7,714 bases of DNA. Source: a bacterium. Its GTDB lineage: Bacteria > UBA9089 > CG2-30-40-21 > SBAY01. A program made the position numbers and the translations under genes. This document shows positions 1-6,463 of the stretch, one piece after another (position 1 is the first letter of the stretch; each line of letters starts with the position of its first letter). The DNA is taken from contig JBFLYA010000177.1 of the NCBI GenBank assembly GCA_040757115.1, positions 1 through 7,714 on the forward strand. The letters run 5' to 3'. Under the pieces are notes generated by a model, which was not told where the DNA came from, ran no database searches, and saw only the letters and a list, made by a program, of their open reading frames with translations.

Positions 1-3000
1 AACACTACCTTTATCGGCTCTTTACTGACTATCAGACTATACTCTCCTTTATTGCCACTATAACTCTTATTCTTGCGCATATCAATCAGATTATCTCTAT
101 CCTTTAAGTAGAGATAGTATTGGAGTGGCACAGTGGTAATATCCCAACTTATCTTTACTTTCCCTGGCTCTCCTACCTGCTCTACCCTAAATTTCCATTC
201 CTTGCTTGTTTCTACTTCACTGCGATAGTCAGAGCCATATTCATCTTCCGTCGGTGAAATAAAGTAACACGCAAGATAAACAGGAGCGAATTCTCCTTCC
301 TCTGCTGGTAACATTGGAATTTCAGCAATATCATATCCATCATCATAGGCATCACTCGCCTCAGAGCTAACGCCAGCAAAGTTGAATCTATCAGTCAGGC
401 TACCAGCCTTAGCTGAAAGCTGGATTGCCCAACTATCCTTATGTTTGATTGGGTTAAACTCATCCACTTCACTCTCACTACGAACTTCATTTTCCACCAC
501 CCACTCCTCTATCGGACAGAAACTCTTCCCCTCTTGAGAGGGGTTAGGGGTGTGTTTCCTACCTATCTCCTCTGCTGGAACGAGCATCTCGCAATCCACT
601 GTCACCGGGATAAAATATCCTATCCAGGGACGAAGGACGCCAGGATATGACACCATCTTAAATCCCATCCCATCATAATACCATAATGAACTCTTTATCC
701 AGCCATTTACATAAGCCGTCACCGGGTCAACTACCTCTATTCCTTTGCGAAACTTTACCTGCGCATTTAAAGCCACCGGGTAAAGATATGGGTGTCCAAT
801 ATGATTCCACCTTTCAGGCAAACCGCCTTTTAATGGAATAACATAATAACCAGAAGGATTAGTCGAACTCCCATAAACAATAATTTCATTATCTTTATCT
901 GCGGTAATCCCATAGCCTATCTCCGGGGCAAAGTTTGGGACAGTTGAGGCTGGCGGATTATGAATGACCCAATTACTCCCATCGAAATAGACCAATCTGA
1001 CATTTTGCTCAAAATTACCCCAATTCCACAACACACCTGCCGGGTCAGGATTCACGGGATGAACAGGAACAGAGATGGATTTGTAAGTTGGATAAATAGC
1101 ACCAATTTTACCTGAGCTAACTGTGCCATAAGTAATCGTCGTCCAGATAGTTGATAAAGTGTCATTCTTGCCATCAGTTGCCCAGATAGCATAAAGTAGT
1201 CCTCGCATCGTTACATTAGAGGCAGGAATAGTTCCTCGATACAAATCACCACCTACATTAGTCATCACTGTAGAAGAGATGGTTTTTGTGCCACCTATCT
1301 TCCAGTATAAAATCGCCTGTTCAACCTTAACATTATCGGTTATCGTCGCCCTGATTATCATTGGCAGACCTGCAGGTGCTTCAGTAATCGGGGTATGTCC
1401 AATAACAGGTGGTATCGTATCTTCAAGGATAAAGAAAAAGGCTATTGCATACGCCCCTGTTTGGAGACCTCTAACTACAACTGTAGTTGTGCCTGGTGGC
1501 TGTATATCTGCTACAAAATAACTAATGAATCTACCATTAGCATCAGTTGTAGTCGTCGTAATACTTATCGTCGTCCCAAAATCTATGCCTATCTGCTCGC
1601 TGGTGCCATAACCATTGCCTATCACACACACAAGTGTCCCTACTGTTCCTTCTGATGGACTATCTACTTTAATCTCTGGGTGGATAAAGAACAAAAATTG
1701 AGCCTGGCAACCTGATTTAATTCCAACAACTATTATACTTTTAGTCCCATACGGTTGGGTATCTACTATAAATGTCTGCCTAAAAGAACCTGTCTCATCA
1801 GTAGAACTAAGAGCAATACTGATGGTCGTCCCAAAATGAATATAAATCTCCTCCTGTCCAGCAAAACCATTTCCAAAAACAGTTACAGATGTTCCTACCG
1901 TCCCAAACATAGGTGAGACTAAGATAATATTGCCTTTGATAACAAACCAACCATAGGCAACACAACCAGAGATAAGTCCTCTACCACTTACACTTACAGT
2001 CCCACAGCCTGCCTGTGTATCTACTGTAAATGTAGTCTTAAACTGACCTAAACTATCTGTCATCGCCAGAGTTATACTCGGATTGATACCAAAGTCAATG
2101 GCTATTTCTTCATAGGCATGATAGCCATTACCAGCAACAGTAACAATACTCCCTACTGTGCCATAAATTGGTGTTACCATGGTAATCTGTGCCTGCATCA
2201 CAAAATATGCCTCTGCCTCAGAGCCAGAGCTAAGTCCTTTAGCCCTGACAGTTAATGTCCCACATCCTGCCTGAATGTCCACAGTGAATGTAGCAACGAA
2301 CCTACCAACCGCATCAGTTGTAGTCGTCGTAATACTTATCGTCCTCCCAAAATCTATGCCTATCTGTTCGCTGGTACCATAACCATTGCCTATCACACAC
2401 ACAAGTGTCCCTACTGTCCCTTCTGATGGACTATCTACTTTAATCTCTGGCTGGATAAAGAACAAAGATTGAGCATGGCAACCTGATTTAATTCCAACAA
2501 CTATTATACTTTTAGTCCCATACGGTTGGGTATCCACTATAAATGTCTGCCTAAAAGAACCTGTCTCATCAGTAGAACTAAGAGCAATACTGATGGTCGT
2601 CCCAAAATGAATATAAATCTCCTCCTGCCCAGCAAAACCATTTCCAAAAACAGTTACAGATGTTCCTACCGTCCCAAACATAGGTGAGACTAAGATAATA
2701 TTGCCTTTGATAACAAACCAACCATAGGCAACACAACCAGAGATAAGTCCTCTACCACTTACACTTACAGTCCCACAGCCTGCCTGTGTATCTACTGTAA
2801 ATGTAGTCTTAAACTGACCTAAACTATCTGTCATCGCCAGAGTTATACTCGGATTGATACCAAAGTCAATGGCTATTTCTTCATAGGCATGATAGCCATT
2901 ACCAGCAACAGTAACAATACTCCCTACTGTGCCATGAATTGGTGTTACCATGGTAATCTGTGCCTGCATCACAAAATATGCCTCTGCCTCAGAGCCAGAG

Positions 3001-4346
3001 CTAAGTCCTTTAGCCCTGACAGTTAATGTCCCACATCCTGCCTGTAAATCTACTGTAAATGTGGCAGTAAAAGTCCCATTTTGATTAGTTTGTGCAGTAG
3101 CAATGGTCTTAGTTATCCCAAAATCTATGGCTACTTGTTCATTTTGCCCAAATCTATCACCTGTTATGGTAAGAATTGTTCCTACTGTCCCAGAAGTAGG
3201 CTCTATAAATATCTCTGCAGAAGGAACAGAAATTATCTTAAAGTATGTATCAGCACTCAGGTCAGAATTAAGCCCAGTAGCTTTAATTGTAGTCATACCA
3301 GCTAATTGTATGTCAATCGTAAAAGTAGCAGTAAATGTCCCTTTTGCATTGGTAATTGAGGTAGTAATAGTCTCAGTTGTTCCAAAGTCTATGCTAATAC
3401 TTTCTGTCTGACCAAATCCTTTACCTGCTATCTCTACTATCGTTCCTATAGTTCCTGATGTAGGGTTAACTATTACCCTTTGTTGAGTGAGTGATTTTAA
3501 AGCTATACCGGTATCGTAGGTTTTATCATTCCAGGAACCATTTGGTTGCTGATGATTACGAATATAATTTAATGCCTGTTTTAAATTTTGTGAGGTTCTC
3601 AATTCTGGTTGTCCTAAAAATGCTAATGCTACAATTGAGGTCTCATAGATAGTGCTTCCATCCTTTCCAAAACCACCATCTTGATTTTGTTGTCCTTTTA
3701 ACCAGTTAGTTCCCTTGTTAATAGCACCTTTTATCACTGCTATATCATTTGGATGAGTAAATATCCCTGCGTCTAATACTTGAACTAAAGAAAGGATAAC
3801 TTGTGAGGTACAATATATACTTCCGGAGGTTTCAAATGGGCTAAATCGCCAATAGTCATAATTACCTTGACTATATAATAAAAAATTAACTATATCTACA
3901 TAAACTTGAATTCCACTATAATTAGACGCTAATAATGCCATTAGAACAAGTCCTGTATCCAACGGACTACCTAAATCATCCTTCTGATACCCAAAATTTT
4001 TATAATAACCATTTTTATACGAGACTAAAATATCTGTTAAAGTACCTACACCTATACCTGCTGAATTCAAAGCTACTATTTTCCGTGCTAAATAATCACA
4101 AACATCGAGTTCAGTTGCCTCGATATAATCTATTGCCCGCAAAAGATTACTCTTAGTCCCTTCTAAATCTAATAATGTTTGCGTAACTACACAGGTATCT
4201 CTAAACCCGGTAGTATCAGGATTGCCCCACGAATAATCGATATTCTGGTTGTCATACAACCACTTAACACCATCATTTATCTCAGCATAGCAAAAACTGG
4301 AAATAAGGACTACACTTAGCATTAAAAACAATCGTGTCCTGAACAT
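1..4346 (-). CDS. Giant exported toroid/IPT-repeat protein, 3' end outside window
   Basis: The frame is open from an ATG at 4346 to the window edge (1448 codons, no stop). I checked frame continuity at several points along it. A signal peptide is clear: MFRTR, then a hydrophobic core, with likely cleavage after CYA (residue 22). Residues about 23-288 resemble the alpha/alpha toroid of the terpenoid cyclase/prenyltransferase superfamily, with repeated WL..QQ..DGGFG-type motifs (DGGFG at 223-227, then QQPNGSW). The acidic DxDD-type cyclase motif was not seen, so a binding or structural role is more likely than cyclase activity. Residues about 290-976 are eight repeats of about 86 residues with the pattern PxxGTVGTxVTVxGxGF, then IDFG, then TFxVD, like IPT/TIG domains. 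Residues about 977-1063 form another Ig-like unit (IPPVI start). The remainder is a beta-rich C-terminal region. The site before ATG contains GGTGGTGAAAG, a weak ribosome binding site. A cell-surface or secreted adhesin-like role is inferred. The exact function is unknown. Confidence 0.9.
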   Translation of the reverse strand, partial: MFRTRLFLMLSVVLISSFCYAEINDGVKWLYDNQNIDYSWGNPDTTGFRDTCVVTQTLLDLEGTKSNLLRAIDYIEATELDVCDYLARKIVALNSAGIGVGTLTDILVSYKNGYYKNFGYQKDDLGSPLDTGLVLMALLASNYSGIQVYVDIVNFLLYSQGNYDYWRFSPFETSGSIYCTSQVILSLVQVLDAGIFTHPNDIAVIKGAINKGTNWLKGQQNQDGGFGKDGSTIYETSIVALAFLGQPELRTSQNLKQALNYIRNHQQPNGSWNDKTYDTGIALKSLTQQRVIVNPTSGTIGTIVEIAGKGFGQTESISIDFGTTETITTSITNAKGTFTATFTIDIQLAGMTTIKATGLNSDLSADTYFKIISVPSAEIFIEPTSGTVGTILTITGDRFGQNEQVAIDFGITKTIATAQTNQNGTFTATFTVDLQAGCGTLTVRAKGLSSGSEAEAYFVMQAQITMVTPIHGTVGSIVTVAGNGYHAYEEIAIDFGINPSITLAMTDSLGQFKTTFTVDTQAGCGTVSVSGRGLISGCVAYGWFVIKGNIILVSPMFGTVGTSVTVFGNGFAGQEEIYIHFGTTISIALSSTDETGSFRQTFIVDTQPYGTKSIIVVGIKSGCHAQSLFFIQPEIKVDSPSEGTVGTLVCVIGNGYGTSEQIGIDFGRTISITTTTTDAVGRFVATFTVDIQAGCGTLTVRAKGLSSGSEAEAYFVMQAQITMVTPIYGTVGSIVTVAGNGYHAYEEIAIDFGINPSITLAMTDSLGQFKTTFTVDTQAGCGTVSVSGRGLISGCVAYGWFVIKGNIILVSPMFGTVGTSVTVFGNGFAGQEEIYIHFGTTISIALSSTDETGSFRQTFIVDTQPYGTKSIIVVGIKSGCQAQFLFFIHPEIKVDSPSEGTVGTLVCVIGNGYGTSEQIGIDFGTTISITTTTTDANGRFISYFVADIQPPGTTTVVVRGLQTGAYAIAFFFILEDTIPPVIGHTPITEAPAGLPMIIRATITDNVKVEQAILYWKIGGTKTISSTVMTNVGGDLYRGTIPASNVTMRGLLYAIWATDGKNDTLSTIWTTITYGTVSSGKIGAIYPTYKSISVPVHPVNPDPAGVLWNWGNFEQNVRLVYFDGSNWVIHNPPASTVPNFAPEIGYGITADKDNEIIVYGSSTNPSGYYVIPLKGGLPERWNHIGHPYLYPVALNAQVKFRKGIEVVDPVTAYVNGWIKSSLWYYDGMGFKMVSYPGVLRPWIGYFIPVTVDCEMLVPAEEIGRKHTPNPSQEGKSFCPIEEWVVENEVRSESEVDEFNPIKHKDSWAIQLSAKAGSLTDRFNFAGVSSEASDAYDDGYDIAEIPMLPAEEGEFAPVYLACYFISPTEDEYGSDYRSEVETSKEWKFRVEQVGEPGKVKISWDITTVPLQYYLYLKDRDNLIDMRKNKSYSGNKGEYSLIVSKEPIKVV
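526..554 (-). repeat. Dispersed palindromic repeat (NPSQEG type) inside the coding region
   Basis: The core at 528-543 is CCCCTC-TTGA-GAGGGG, a 6-bp stem with a 4-nt loop, followed by TTAGGGGTGTG. Read on the gene strand it gives the in-frame peptide HTPNPSQEGKSFC (residues 1265-1277). From general knowledge, TPNPSQEG-like peptides are the translation of a short palindromic repeat scattered through many bacterial genomes. Here it interrupts the C-terminal region, between PAEEIGRK and PIEEWVVENE, without breaking the frame. Confidence 0.7.
1540..2273 (-). repeat. Internal tandem duplication, C-terminal-side copy
   Basis: This segment matches 2311-3044 at a constant offset of 771 bp (257 codons). 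I count ten mismatches over 734 bp and no gaps. It encodes the end of IPT repeat 5, repeats 6 and 7, and the first half of repeat 8. Weaker identity continues a few bases below 1540 (about 1527-1536), so the lower boundary is approximate. Confidence 0.92.
2311..3044 (-). repeat. Internal tandem duplication, N-terminal-side copy
   Basis: This is the partner of 1540-2273. It encodes the second half of IPT repeat 2, repeats 3 and 4, and the first half of repeat 5. The 37 bp between the copies (2274-2310) and the flank above 3044 no longer match base for base but still encode the same repeat fold. Repeat 5 is therefore a chimera: its first half resembles repeat 8 and its second half resembles repeat 2. 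This is what unequal crossover between neighbouring repeats leaves behind. Confidence 0.92.
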
Positions 4347-4365: not shown

Positions 4366-4443
4366 TATAGTAATCGGATTCAACTGATTAATCAGATTTT
4401 CATTAATTTTTATCCGTTTTATCCGCTAAATCCGTTTACTATA
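4366..4443. repeat. 78-bp inverted-repeat element
   Basis: The ends are TATAGTAATCGGATT (4366-4380) and AATCCGTTTACTATA (4429-4443). They are inverted repeats matching at 14 of 15 positions. The interior holds a perfect 12-bp palindrome CTGATTAATCAG (4384-4395) and short ATCCGTTTTATCCGC-like direct repeats. The element lies 20 bp upstream of the start codon of the large gene, so it would lie in that gene's promoter or leader. It looks like a small dispersed palindromic element; copy number cannot be seen here. Confidence 0.6.
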
Positions 4444-4483
4444 AATTTCCACCAATTTCCATGAATTTCTATTGTATTTCTAT
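4444..4483. repeat. 10-bp periodic AT tract
   Basis: Four successive decamers (AATTTCCACC, AATTTCCATG, AATTTCTATT, GTATTTCTAT) put TTT runs at 4446, 4456, 4466 and 4476, exactly one helical turn apart. Phased A/T tracts of this kind are known to bend DNA. The tract sits between two inverted-repeat elements upstream of the large gene. Confidence 0.55.
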
Positions 4484-4493
4484 TTGTCTTTTA

Positions 4494-4547
4494 GTAATCG
4501 AATCAAACTAATCTTTTCCTTTAGTTAAATTCGCTTAATTCGATTAC
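4494..4547. repeat. 54-bp inverted-repeat element
   Basis: The ends GTAATCGAAT (4494-4503) and ATTCGATTAC (4538-4547) are perfect 10-bp inverted repeats. The left end resembles the left end of the 78-bp element (TAGTAATCGGATT versus TAGTAATCGAATC). The two are probably diverged relatives or two halves of one composite repeat. Confidence 0.55.
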
Positions 4548-4573
4548 CATATCTAATTCACAATTCAAGATAC

Positions 4574-4793
4574 GACCCTAAACTCTACCCCTAAACTCTA
4601 CCCCCTAAACTCTACCCCTAAACTCTACCCCTAAACTCTACCCCGACCCTAAACTCTACGACCCTAAACTCTACGCGACCCTAAACTCTACGCGACCCTA
4701 AACTCTACGACCCTAAACTCTATACGACCCTAAACTCTATAAACTCTAAACTCCCCCCGACCTTAAACTACCCCCGCGACCCTAAGCTACCCT
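4574..4793. repeat. Minisatellite of CCCTAAACTCTA units
   Basis: Eleven copies of the 12-mer CCCTAAACTCTA are seen from 4574 to about 4740. They are joined by variable linkers: C, CC, CG, CGCGA, CCCGA or TACGA. Unit length is therefore 13 to 18 bp rather than fixed. Towards 4793 the units decay (AAACTCTAAACTCC, GACCTTAAACTACC, GACCCTAAGCTACC), and the array ends against the stop codon of the gene at 4794-5723. It contains no open frame of note. On the gene strand the array is G-rich (GGG or GGGG about every 14 nt) and would lie in the spacer read through between the operon and the large gene. Confidence 0.93.
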
Positions 4794-5723
4794 TTATTTT
4801 TTCTCTTCACGCTTTTTTAATACTTCCTTTATCTCTTTTATGAATCCTTTTATACGATACTCTTCATATTCTTTACCACCACATTCAGCTACAGGTATAG
4901 TAGGGTCTTTAAGATACTCTTTGAGATATATCTCGAATTCCTCAATAGCCTTCTCTAACTCACCTGTTCCCCACCAATAGCTAAATGCTAAAGTAAGATG
5001 TGCTTGGTAGTATGTAGGATCAATTCTAAGTGTTTTTTTTGCCTTTTCTAAATCTCCATAATAATTAGCTTGTTCATGTAATACTATAGCTTTTTCTCTC
5101 TTAGTAACTGGTTTTTTTATATAAAAAGTGACTGGTTTAGCAATAAGTAATCCATGAAAGATGTCTTTATCAGATACAGAACGAGAGTCGTAGATACCAG
5201 TAATTTCATATTCCCCTGGTTCAAGTTTAGCAGTTATATCTGGTGGAATAACCCATCTCGTTCGTACATCTCCGCCTGAACCCACAAGTTCTATTTTATC
5301 TTCCTTATAATCGTGTATTTTGGAGTAATACCTACACCAATTAATATCTTTCAATTTTTCCTCTCGACGAATAACTTCACCTGATGTTCTTGTAACCTTG
5401 TTCACTTTAATTTTCAGATTATCATCCCATCTCCATGTAGGAGTTGCTATCTTTACTTTAATAATCTTCTCTTTTACTTCTTTTCCATAAGATTTCTCAT
5501 TTTGAATTCTGTTAAATTGCCTAATACCTGCATTATTAACCCAGTAAATTTCGAAGGATAGTGGTTTCCCCTGCAAGCATTTATCATGTCCAAGAGTAGA
5601 GAATTTGAGTTCCAGGTCTTCTTCCTTTATCGAAGAACTATAAACAGGAGATATTCCTCTACATATAATTAGGTTTATAGAAAAAATAAATAAATTTGTA
5701 AAAGATTTTCGTTTTCTTATCAT
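4794..5723 (-). CDS. Exported Ig-like/TPR protein (309 aa)
   Basis: The ATG at 5723 follows a textbook AGGAGG at 8-nt spacing, which fixes the start. The N-terminus MIRKRKSFTNLFIFSINLIIC is basic and then hydrophobic, a likely signal peptide with cleavage near VYSSS (about residue 30). Residues about 36-205 are beta-rich. They contain a LEPGEYEITGIYDSR segment (167-181) typical of the last strands of an Ig-like sandwich, ending in PVTFYIKKP. Residues about 207-270 look like TPR helices: AIVLHEQANYYGDLEKAKKT, then AHLTLAFSYW and ELEKAIEEFEIYLKEY. The tail is lysine- and glutamate-rich. The architecture matches the 302-aa protein at 6451-7359, although the sequences are far apart. It is the last gene of the tight minus-strand cluster, with a 38-bp gap after the protease frame. 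The family was not recognised; an envelope or periplasmic scaffold or partner protein is inferred. Confidence 0.87.
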   Translation of the reverse strand: MIRKRKSFTNLFIFSINLIICRGISPVYSSSIKEEDLELKFSTLGHDKCLQGKPLSFEIYWVNNAGIRQFNRIQNEKSYGKEVKEKIIKVKIATPTWRWDDNLKIKVNKVTRTSGEVIRREEKLKDINWCRYYSKIHDYKEDKIELVGSGGDVRTRWVIPPDITAKLEPGEYEITGIYDSRSVSDKDIFHGLLIAKPVTFYIKKPVTKREKAIVLHEQANYYGDLEKAKKTLRIDPTYYQAHLTLAFSYWWGTGELEKAIEEFEIYLKEYLKDPTIPVAECGGKEYEEYRIKGFIKEIKEVLKKREEKK

Positions 5724-5731
5724 TGTATTTC

Positions 5732-5737
5732 CCTCCT
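5732..5737 (-). promoter_or_regulatory. Ribosome binding site AGGAGG
   Basis: The gene strand reads AAAAGGAGGGAAATACAATG. The spacing of 8 nt to the ATG at 5723 is ideal and sets the start of the 309-aa protein. Confidence 0.85.
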
Positions 5738-5761
5738 TTTTGTGAAAGATTTAAATTTTCC

Positions 5762-6358
5762 TTATTTATCACTAACCTCAAACTGACTTTTACAATCTGA
5801 GCAAAAATCTACGCCAATTGGCATTGTATTCCATCCATCAGCATCATTAGTGCCGGAGTGCTCTGGAAGATGAGGTTTTCGATATAGATTCCATTCATCC
5901 CACAAATATCTCATCGCACATGAAGTATCACCAGCAGTGGGTGGATCATGATGAGCAATTGAGATACCATGTCCTAATTCATGAGTAATATTATGCATTA
6001 CAGCATCAGCTGATCTATCGTTTGCTCCATCTGGACGATCCCACTTCTCATCCCATCTCACCTGTTCTACATCACATCTAATTTCGGGATGGTTTTTAGG
6101 AGGTCCATTCGGACCTAAGGATAGCCCCCAATGATGATACTCCTCCCGATCTGAACCTGGACCTGGAGGACCAAAATCAAAATCTATTAACCATAGCCCA
6201 TGTTGCTCAACAATATGAGCAGTTTTATGGTTAAAATTGACTACTCTACTGGTAACCCCATTAAATTCATCAGCAGTTATTTGATAATGAACACTCATTC
6301 CTGATGCAGAGGTAAAGTTCCCTCGAAGATAAATATTATCCTCATCATAAATGAACAA
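5762..6358 (-). CDS. Metzincin-type zinc metalloprotease, start uncertain or N-truncated
   Basis: The frame contains HELGHGISIAHH (residues 126-137, counted from the TTG at 6358), which fits the HExxHxxxxxH zinc-binding motif of metzincins. The usual Gly at position 8 is Ser. E127 would be the catalytic base. A Met-turn candidate, SCAMRY (146-151), lies 10 residues after the third His. A CSDC pair (186-189) near the end may, with C147, bind a structural zinc, somewhat like archaemetzincin-type enzymes. The start is unclear: the only common start is this TTG, which has AAGGA just 1 nt upstream, too close to act normally. The frame stays open upstream to a stop at 6464-6466 and reads plausible protein (SGLRAQYQGFLVSG, RTNPNTKDLF) with no ATG or GTG. 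No signal peptide is visible although both neighbours are exported. It is either translated by coupling from the gene upstream or is an N-truncated remnant. Confidence 0.75.
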   Translation of the reverse strand: MFIYDEDNIYLRGNFTSASGMSVHYQITADEFNGVTSRVVNFNHKTAHIVEQHGLWLIDFDFGPPGPGSDREEYHHWGLSLGPNGPPKNHPEIRCDVEQVRWDEKWDRPDGANDRSADAVMHNITHELGHGISIAHHDPPTAGDTSCAMRYLWDEWNLYRKPHLPEHSGTNDADGWNTMPIGVDFCSDCKSQFEVSDK

Positions 6359-6463
6359 GTCCTTCGTATTTGGATTTGTTCTTACATGAGTACCACTTAC
6401 AAGAAATCCCTGATACTGTGCCCTTAATCCTGACCTGCTTATTTTACTTTTTACTTTAACAAT
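6359..6463 (-). other. Upstream in-frame extension of the protease frame
   Basis: Codons from 6463 down to 6359 are open in the protease frame: IVKVKSKISRSG, then LRAQYQGFLVSGTHVRTNPN. The extension overlaps the last codons and TAA of the 302-aa gene (stop at 6451-6453). Its only unusual start would be the ATT at 6463. The later part reads continuously into FIYDEDNIYLRG, so the real or ancestral protein probably began upstream of 6358. Confidence 0.5.

Follow-up and report, generated by a model that had tools for sequence, protein, structure and literature searches.

A bacterial intergenic tandem array composed of truncated ends of a dispersed hairpin-forming element and a locus-specific flank word

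The intergenic spacer and its tandem array

The stretch of bacterial DNA analysed here (the window, 7,714 nt at its full length) carries a tandem array in the spacer between two genes of the reverse strand. The left-hand gene (3-4346), which encodes a large repeat protein, is open at the contig edge, while the right-hand gene (4794-5723), for which profile searches of the open reading frames gave no Pfam or NCBIfam match, adjoins the array with its 3' end, its stop codon occupying positions 4794-4796. The same searches found no transposase gene in the window. Positions 4370-4500, upstream of the left-hand gene, hold a dispersed intergenic repeat containing AATCGGATT and ATCCGCTAAATCCG that is also present in the genomes G002 and G003.

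An exact pattern search places 11 CCCTAAACTCTA cores at 4576-4739, in agreement with the first-pass annotation of this DNA, and the tandem array was also called by TRF (scores 201-213). Parsed into units, the array (4579-4739, forward strand) alternates a variable linker, ranging from CCC to ATACGACCC, with the constant word TAAACTCT, sometimes extended by A. The linkers had been described as changing in blocks (C, CGA, CGCGA, TACGA), and they do, in the order CCC/CCCC, CGACCC, ACGACCC, (AC)GCGACCC and ATACGACCC; every one of them is a suffix of GATACGACCC, the sequence immediately to the left of the array. Beyond 4739 follow the degenerate units TAAACTC, CGACCTTAAACTA and CGCGACCCTAAGCTA (4740-4793, forward strand), which run to one base short of the stop codon of the right-hand gene. 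The units close to the left edge are homogeneous and contain recognisable pieces of the adjoining sequence, while those on the distal, gene side have decayed, a gradient that bears out the decay noted earlier and supports growth from one side. The array that had been reported is real, with the correction that the first element-derived bases lie upstream of its reported start, at 4554-4578.

The literal unit is confined to this locus. A search of its own metagenome-assembled genome (G000) for core arrays, as the first-pass annotation had suggested, returned the window locus and no second place with two nearby CCCTAAACTCTA cores (a reversed-pattern control gave 0), which disposes of same-word arrays at other loci of that genome. 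Spread of the array by plasmids was rejected, as it has no match among plasmid records, and a known RNA was rejected because the window has no Rfam match.

A dispersed hairpin element with its own flank word at each locus

A DNA search of G000 gave short matches confined to the opening 21-26 bases of the query sequence, and none to the core. Those first bases, AATTCACAATTCAAGATACGACCC, belong to a dispersed element, here called element A, so that the left edge of the array is a hairpin-forming element found at many other places. Exact copies of AATTCAAGATRYGACCC number 20 in G000, 13 in G001, which belongs to the same genus, and 8 in G002, a member of the same family, against none in G003 and one across 15 other genomes of the phylum, with 0 matches for the reversed control pattern; the search was also run allowing two mismatches. 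Full copies are two-armed palindromes, GGGTCRCATCTTGAATTGTGAATTA ... TAATTCACAATTCAAGATGYGACCC, predicted to fold into a near-perfect hairpin, and they are dispersed as singles, dimers and clusters. The window holds a single arm, TAATTCACAATTCAAGATACGACCC (4554-4578, forward strand), which falls within the upstream region of the left-hand gene; the opposite arm is absent.

Two familiar classes were tried for element A and rejected. At the two-armed copy in G000:C125 the outward flanks differ (TCACTCATAC and TTCTCCCCTC), giving no target-site duplication, and this speaks against a classical DDE-type MITE and against the flank word being such a duplication. Membership of the REP/REPIN group, defined by a GTAG tag and a hairpin of 20-40 bp, was rejected because the tag is not conserved: GTAG is not fixed at the hairpin foot and occurs only in some flank words. 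An inverted-repeat element of approximately 280 bp, AGGCTGTTGACA ... TGTCAACAGCCT, is inserted into copies at four G001 loci. Many near-identical attC-like sites, AACGATAAAGTTCAGGTGCGGCGGGGAG ... CCCCGCCGTCAACTGCAACGCAGGGTTAG, dozens in G000 and G001 together, suggest large integron cassette arrays, and several copies of element A and of a second palindromic element, B, lie inside integron cassettes.

The sister copies of element A reveal the class to which the window array belongs. There too a variable element-end tip is followed by a constant, locus-specific flank of 8-12 nt and the pair is reiterated, each locus having a word of its own: TTCATGGTTCC in G001:C40, TACTCCCTACC in G000:C30, TATTCTACGCC in G000:C70, TATACTACC in G001:C100, TATCTCCACC in G001:C125, TACTCCCCTCC in G001:C297 and TCATACCCC in G001:C411. 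The spacers between word copies are element-end suffixes of 0-19 nt, most commonly CGACCC and sometimes CAAGATGTGACCC or the entire CAATTCAAGATGCGACCC. The joint from tip to word is precise and that from word to the next tip is ragged. The window array is thus not a free-standing minisatellite; its linkers are 5'-truncated pieces of the element end and its core is the local flank. Although the array is, in its literal unit, a single-locus one absent from relatives, dozens of loci in three genomes share its grammar with other words.

The likeness of the core to a telomere repeat, on which the first-pass annotation had remarked, is accidental, being the product of GACCC meeting TAAACTC. The suggestion that transcripts might form quadruplexes gains no support either: the loops are about 9 nt and too long, the word is different at each locus, and folding of the G-rich strand is predicted to be weak. 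Telomere-like and quadruplex functions were rejected on these grounds. A proposed tie to surface-protein genes is not borne out, as integron cassettes and Rhs-like regions contain arrays too, and others have chemoreceptor, TPR or transposase genes as neighbours.

At least two copies of an element's own first eight flank bases were found at 31 of 50 element ends in the three genomes, and at least three copies at 17 of 50, a sample that includes a few duplicated loci and is not fully independent. The corresponding values at control GACCC sites in 720 kb of the same genome are 26/608 and 2/608, and about 4% of random positions have a repeated flank. A different and unrelated dispersed repeat, found in the sister genome G001, begins CTAAACTTTTGCGTTTTTTGCTAACACTTTGTATTT; as a control, it carries such arrays at one of nine copies. 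These counts bear directly on the possibility that an ordinary locus-specific minisatellite (VNTR) has come to lie beside the element by chance, a reading that could draw on the restriction of the exact unit to one locus and on the wealth of other short tandem arrays in G000 (some 206 intergenic arrays of period 8-60 in 720 kb). We regard it as very improbable: the linkers derive from the element end next to them, such arrays accompany 31/50 copies against about 4% of controls, and the sister loci contradict it.

Gene junctions and transposase genes with the same ends

Two paralogs of the right-hand gene, with 65-67% protein identity, lie in G000:C290. Similarity to them at the DNA level extends to TTA|GGGTC and ends there, and at that same spot the paralogs bear element B, GGGTCAGACCTTGAATG ... 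CATTCACGGTCTGACCCC. On the gene strand the distal flank of the window array reads GTAGCTTA|GGGTC and the array word GTAGAGTTTA, and one paralog has a similar 3' end, GTAGAAGATTA|GGGTC. As GTAGAAGATTA is close to GTAGAGTTTA, the window word is plausibly the right-hand gene's own 3' end. A comparable case is G002:C355: its G003 ortholog shows, at the position of the array, a purine-rich gene end that is similar. The source of the word cannot always be seen, because at three loci the homolog of the right flank lacks it.

Right flanks that are truncated homologs occur at three sister arrays: a chemoreceptor-like gene (named from its translation), compared with two homologous loci; another gene, compared with one; and a dispersed repeat that lacks its first 35 bp relative to nine copies. 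In G000:C290 two gene fragments follow element B: directly after it comes one of 127 bp that matches window positions 1-127, in the 3' part of the large left-hand gene, at 100% identity, while the other, of 259 bp, stems from the gene at 5762-6358 and has 90% identity. Together, the fragments and truncated homologs place the elements at joints of gene pieces. The same contig contains a duplicated protease-like/TPR-like gene pair, 79% identical to window positions 4778-6409, whose copies are separated by element B and fragments of genes. Rhs-like or immunity-type loci rich in element A and in near-identical repeated gene pieces (G000:C70, C210 and C347; G001:C40 and C312) are apparent hot spots of reshuffling, and two same-word arrays in G001:C40 sit within a duplicated Rhs-like tail.

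The grammar recurs, with different words, at most copies of the element, and intact Y1 transposase genes from several phyla have it at their ends. One such gene, in contig G001:C398, is intact; its 225-aa Y1 product has the HUH and tyrosine motifs and matches the NCBIfam REP-associated tyrosine transposase below the curated cut-off. The left end of this gene reads AGCTTATCT-GGGGACACAATACCT-AGCTTATCT-GGGGACACAAT-AGCTTATCT-GGGGACAC-AGCTTATCT-GGGGACACAATACC..., and at the right end AGATTACCT is repeated with pieces of GTCCCC or GTGTCCCC. Shorter arrays lie at Y1 gene ends in G001:C40, G000:C12 and G000:C7. Relatives of the G001 transposase were absent from viral contigs. Identical Y1 proteins are present in two species (G000:C7 and G001:C9), with GTAG-tagged hairpin ends and differing flanking duplications.

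Among distant homologs in complete plasmids, arrays are found in Pseudoalteromonas sp. THAF3 (pTHAF3_a), Skermanella mucosa (pSM-2) and S. rosea (pSR-1), with two units in Legionella adelaidensis and a weak case in Acetoanaerobium noterae; Iodobacter, Rhodospirillum and Sporomusa have clean repeats and no array. Of the eight TIR-bearing loci in this small sample, three therefore lack an array and five have one, weakly so in one case. Recognisable GGGG repeats were absent at four Paraburkholderia homologs and one from Caballeronia. Independently assembled genomes show the grammar too, as do complete plasmid records from other phyla, which makes an artefact of short-read metagenome assembly extremely improbable, even with G000 in 462 contigs and a run of N in the sister array of G000:C30.

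A link between the window arm and a transposase comes from the Actinomycetota MAG Ch49 (G041:C61), in which repeats reading ..GTGAAGATACGACCCC, doubled together with their flank, enclose an intact gene for a 295-aa Y1 protein. The sequence AAGATACGACCC is common to the window arm and the TIR of this transposase, and solo copies in Ch49, ACAATTCAAGATACGACCCC, match the window end exactly over 19 nt. Within G000-G003, no Y1 gene with element A as its own ends was found.

In the window the boundary of element and flank falls at C|T (4578-4579, forward strand), a candidate cleavage site suggested by the boundary counts and by the cut sites of TnpAREP enzymes, and T follows the terminal C run at 44 of 50 element ends (a manual count from the table). 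Across the class the element passes into the flank at a precise point, C|T or C|A, while the joint of flank and next piece is ragged. TnpAREP enzymes cleave single strands at C|T, and one of them also at C|A (PMC8266576), and the boundaries of element A (C|T) and of most GGGGWSAS elements (C|A) are consistent with that chemistry. A scheme that dispenses with the transposase would have the hairpin stall replication and the polymerase re-copy its last bases through CC/CCC matches. It fits the strong folding of the element, the C runs at the joints, the prevalence of the CGACCC piece and flank words that are C-rich on the array strand (37% C, 6.5% G), and it is a serious rival because none of the Y1 genes found in G000-G003 has element A as its own ends. 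We nevertheless judge passive slippage on its own rather unlikely: the boundary is highly precise, the pattern tracks Y1 transposase ends across phyla, and the unrelated dispersed repeat, although not hairpin-matched, is almost free of arrays.

Proposed origin and relation to known systems

The array is probably the amplified outer edge of a solitary, nonautonomous TIRYT-type arm, a terminal inverted repeat like those on either side of REP-associated-like Y1 (HUH) single-strand transposases. Its end would have gone through repeated rounds of nicking and recopying, frequently at rearrangement junctions. The nick, in single-stranded DNA where the arm ends, would be the work of a Y1 HUH enzyme whose gene lies elsewhere or has since been lost. 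While the DNA is repaired or replicated, the new strand, having just passed the tip and some ten bases of flank, could then slip back onto the tip, often by way of a CC/CCC match, and the tip would be copied again. Such a cycle would leave precise tip-to-flank joints, ragged flank-to-tip joints and growth on the element side, and the same broken ends may sometimes join distant DNA, leaving gene fragments beside the arrays. As a wider and distinctly tentative proposal, TIRYT-type single-strand transposases, or the repair of their nicks, might possess a previously undescribed activity that copies the tip with about ten neighbouring bases again and again, creates a private minisatellite at each insertion and joins ends to distant gene fragments. 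If true, minisatellites and rearrangements in several bacterial phyla would share this activity as a general source. The reading of the window array given above explains how minisatellites that look unrelated can have one origin within a genome, and it ties these elements to gene truncation and shuffling. It also supplies a footprint for the poorly understood REP-like elements, namely a precise tip/flank joint, a ragged flank/tip joint and a C|T or C|A boundary. As this footprint can be seen in complete public plasmids, it makes the way in which REP and TIR elements spread accessible to experiment.

Cyanobacterial STRRs are intergenic short tandem arrays of heptamers in many copies, and their units are common to many loci, in contrast to the present arrays, which have their own word at each locus and are tied to a transposon end. 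Other arrays of G000 do resemble STRRs, many having a period of 14 or 21 and being built from heptamers (AACTATC/AACTATA, TCTGCCC/TCTGTCC, TGGTGAT/TGGTAAC), with no tie to element A. The IS200/IS605 elements share Y1 HUH chemistry and palindromic ends with the system described here and differ in that guide/cleavage pairs were not found here; we know of no counterpart to the reiterated tips.

The nearest relatives are the TIR-associated tyrosine transposases named TIRYT by Di Nocera et al. 2013 (PMC3733652), which form TIRtrons and in many cases have the motif GGGGWSAS. The likeness lies in short terminal inverted repeats of Y1 HUH transposases and in dispersed families, which occur as singles, dimers or clusters; element A is dispersed in the same way and shares its end with an intact TIRYT, and its variants read GGGGTCAC. 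The window differs in having one arm, no Y1 gene between repeats such as is found at G001:C398 and G041:C61, and the variant GGGTCGTA. Against the strict motif, which is seen in the sister GGGGTCAC copies, it reads TAGGGTCGTATC, one G short and with G for A, where sister copies read GGGGTCACATC. The relevant subclass is probably TnpAREP subclass 2.1 (PMC6006769).

REP/REPIN clusters and BIMEs are likewise Y1-mobilised hairpin repeats with tandem reiteration that takes in flanking DNA: REPIN tandem clusters include their flanks (Bertels and Rainey 2011, PMC3116915), and REP clusters are described as tandemly reiterated along with flanking DNA segments (PMC3733652). REPIN clusters, however, repeat whole REPINs with flank, about 100 bp and more, whereas the arrays described here have units of 12-30 nt, made of a 0-19 nt tip and 8-12 nt of flank, and no conserved GTAG. 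The passages of PMC3733652 consulted make no mention of arrays of 5'-truncated TIR tips with a constant locus-specific flank. The element family and its tandem reiteration with flanking DNA are already known from TIRYT and REP/REPIN clusters, while the truncated-tip grammar, of which the open-access literature searched yielded no description, and its association with rearrangement junctions look new.
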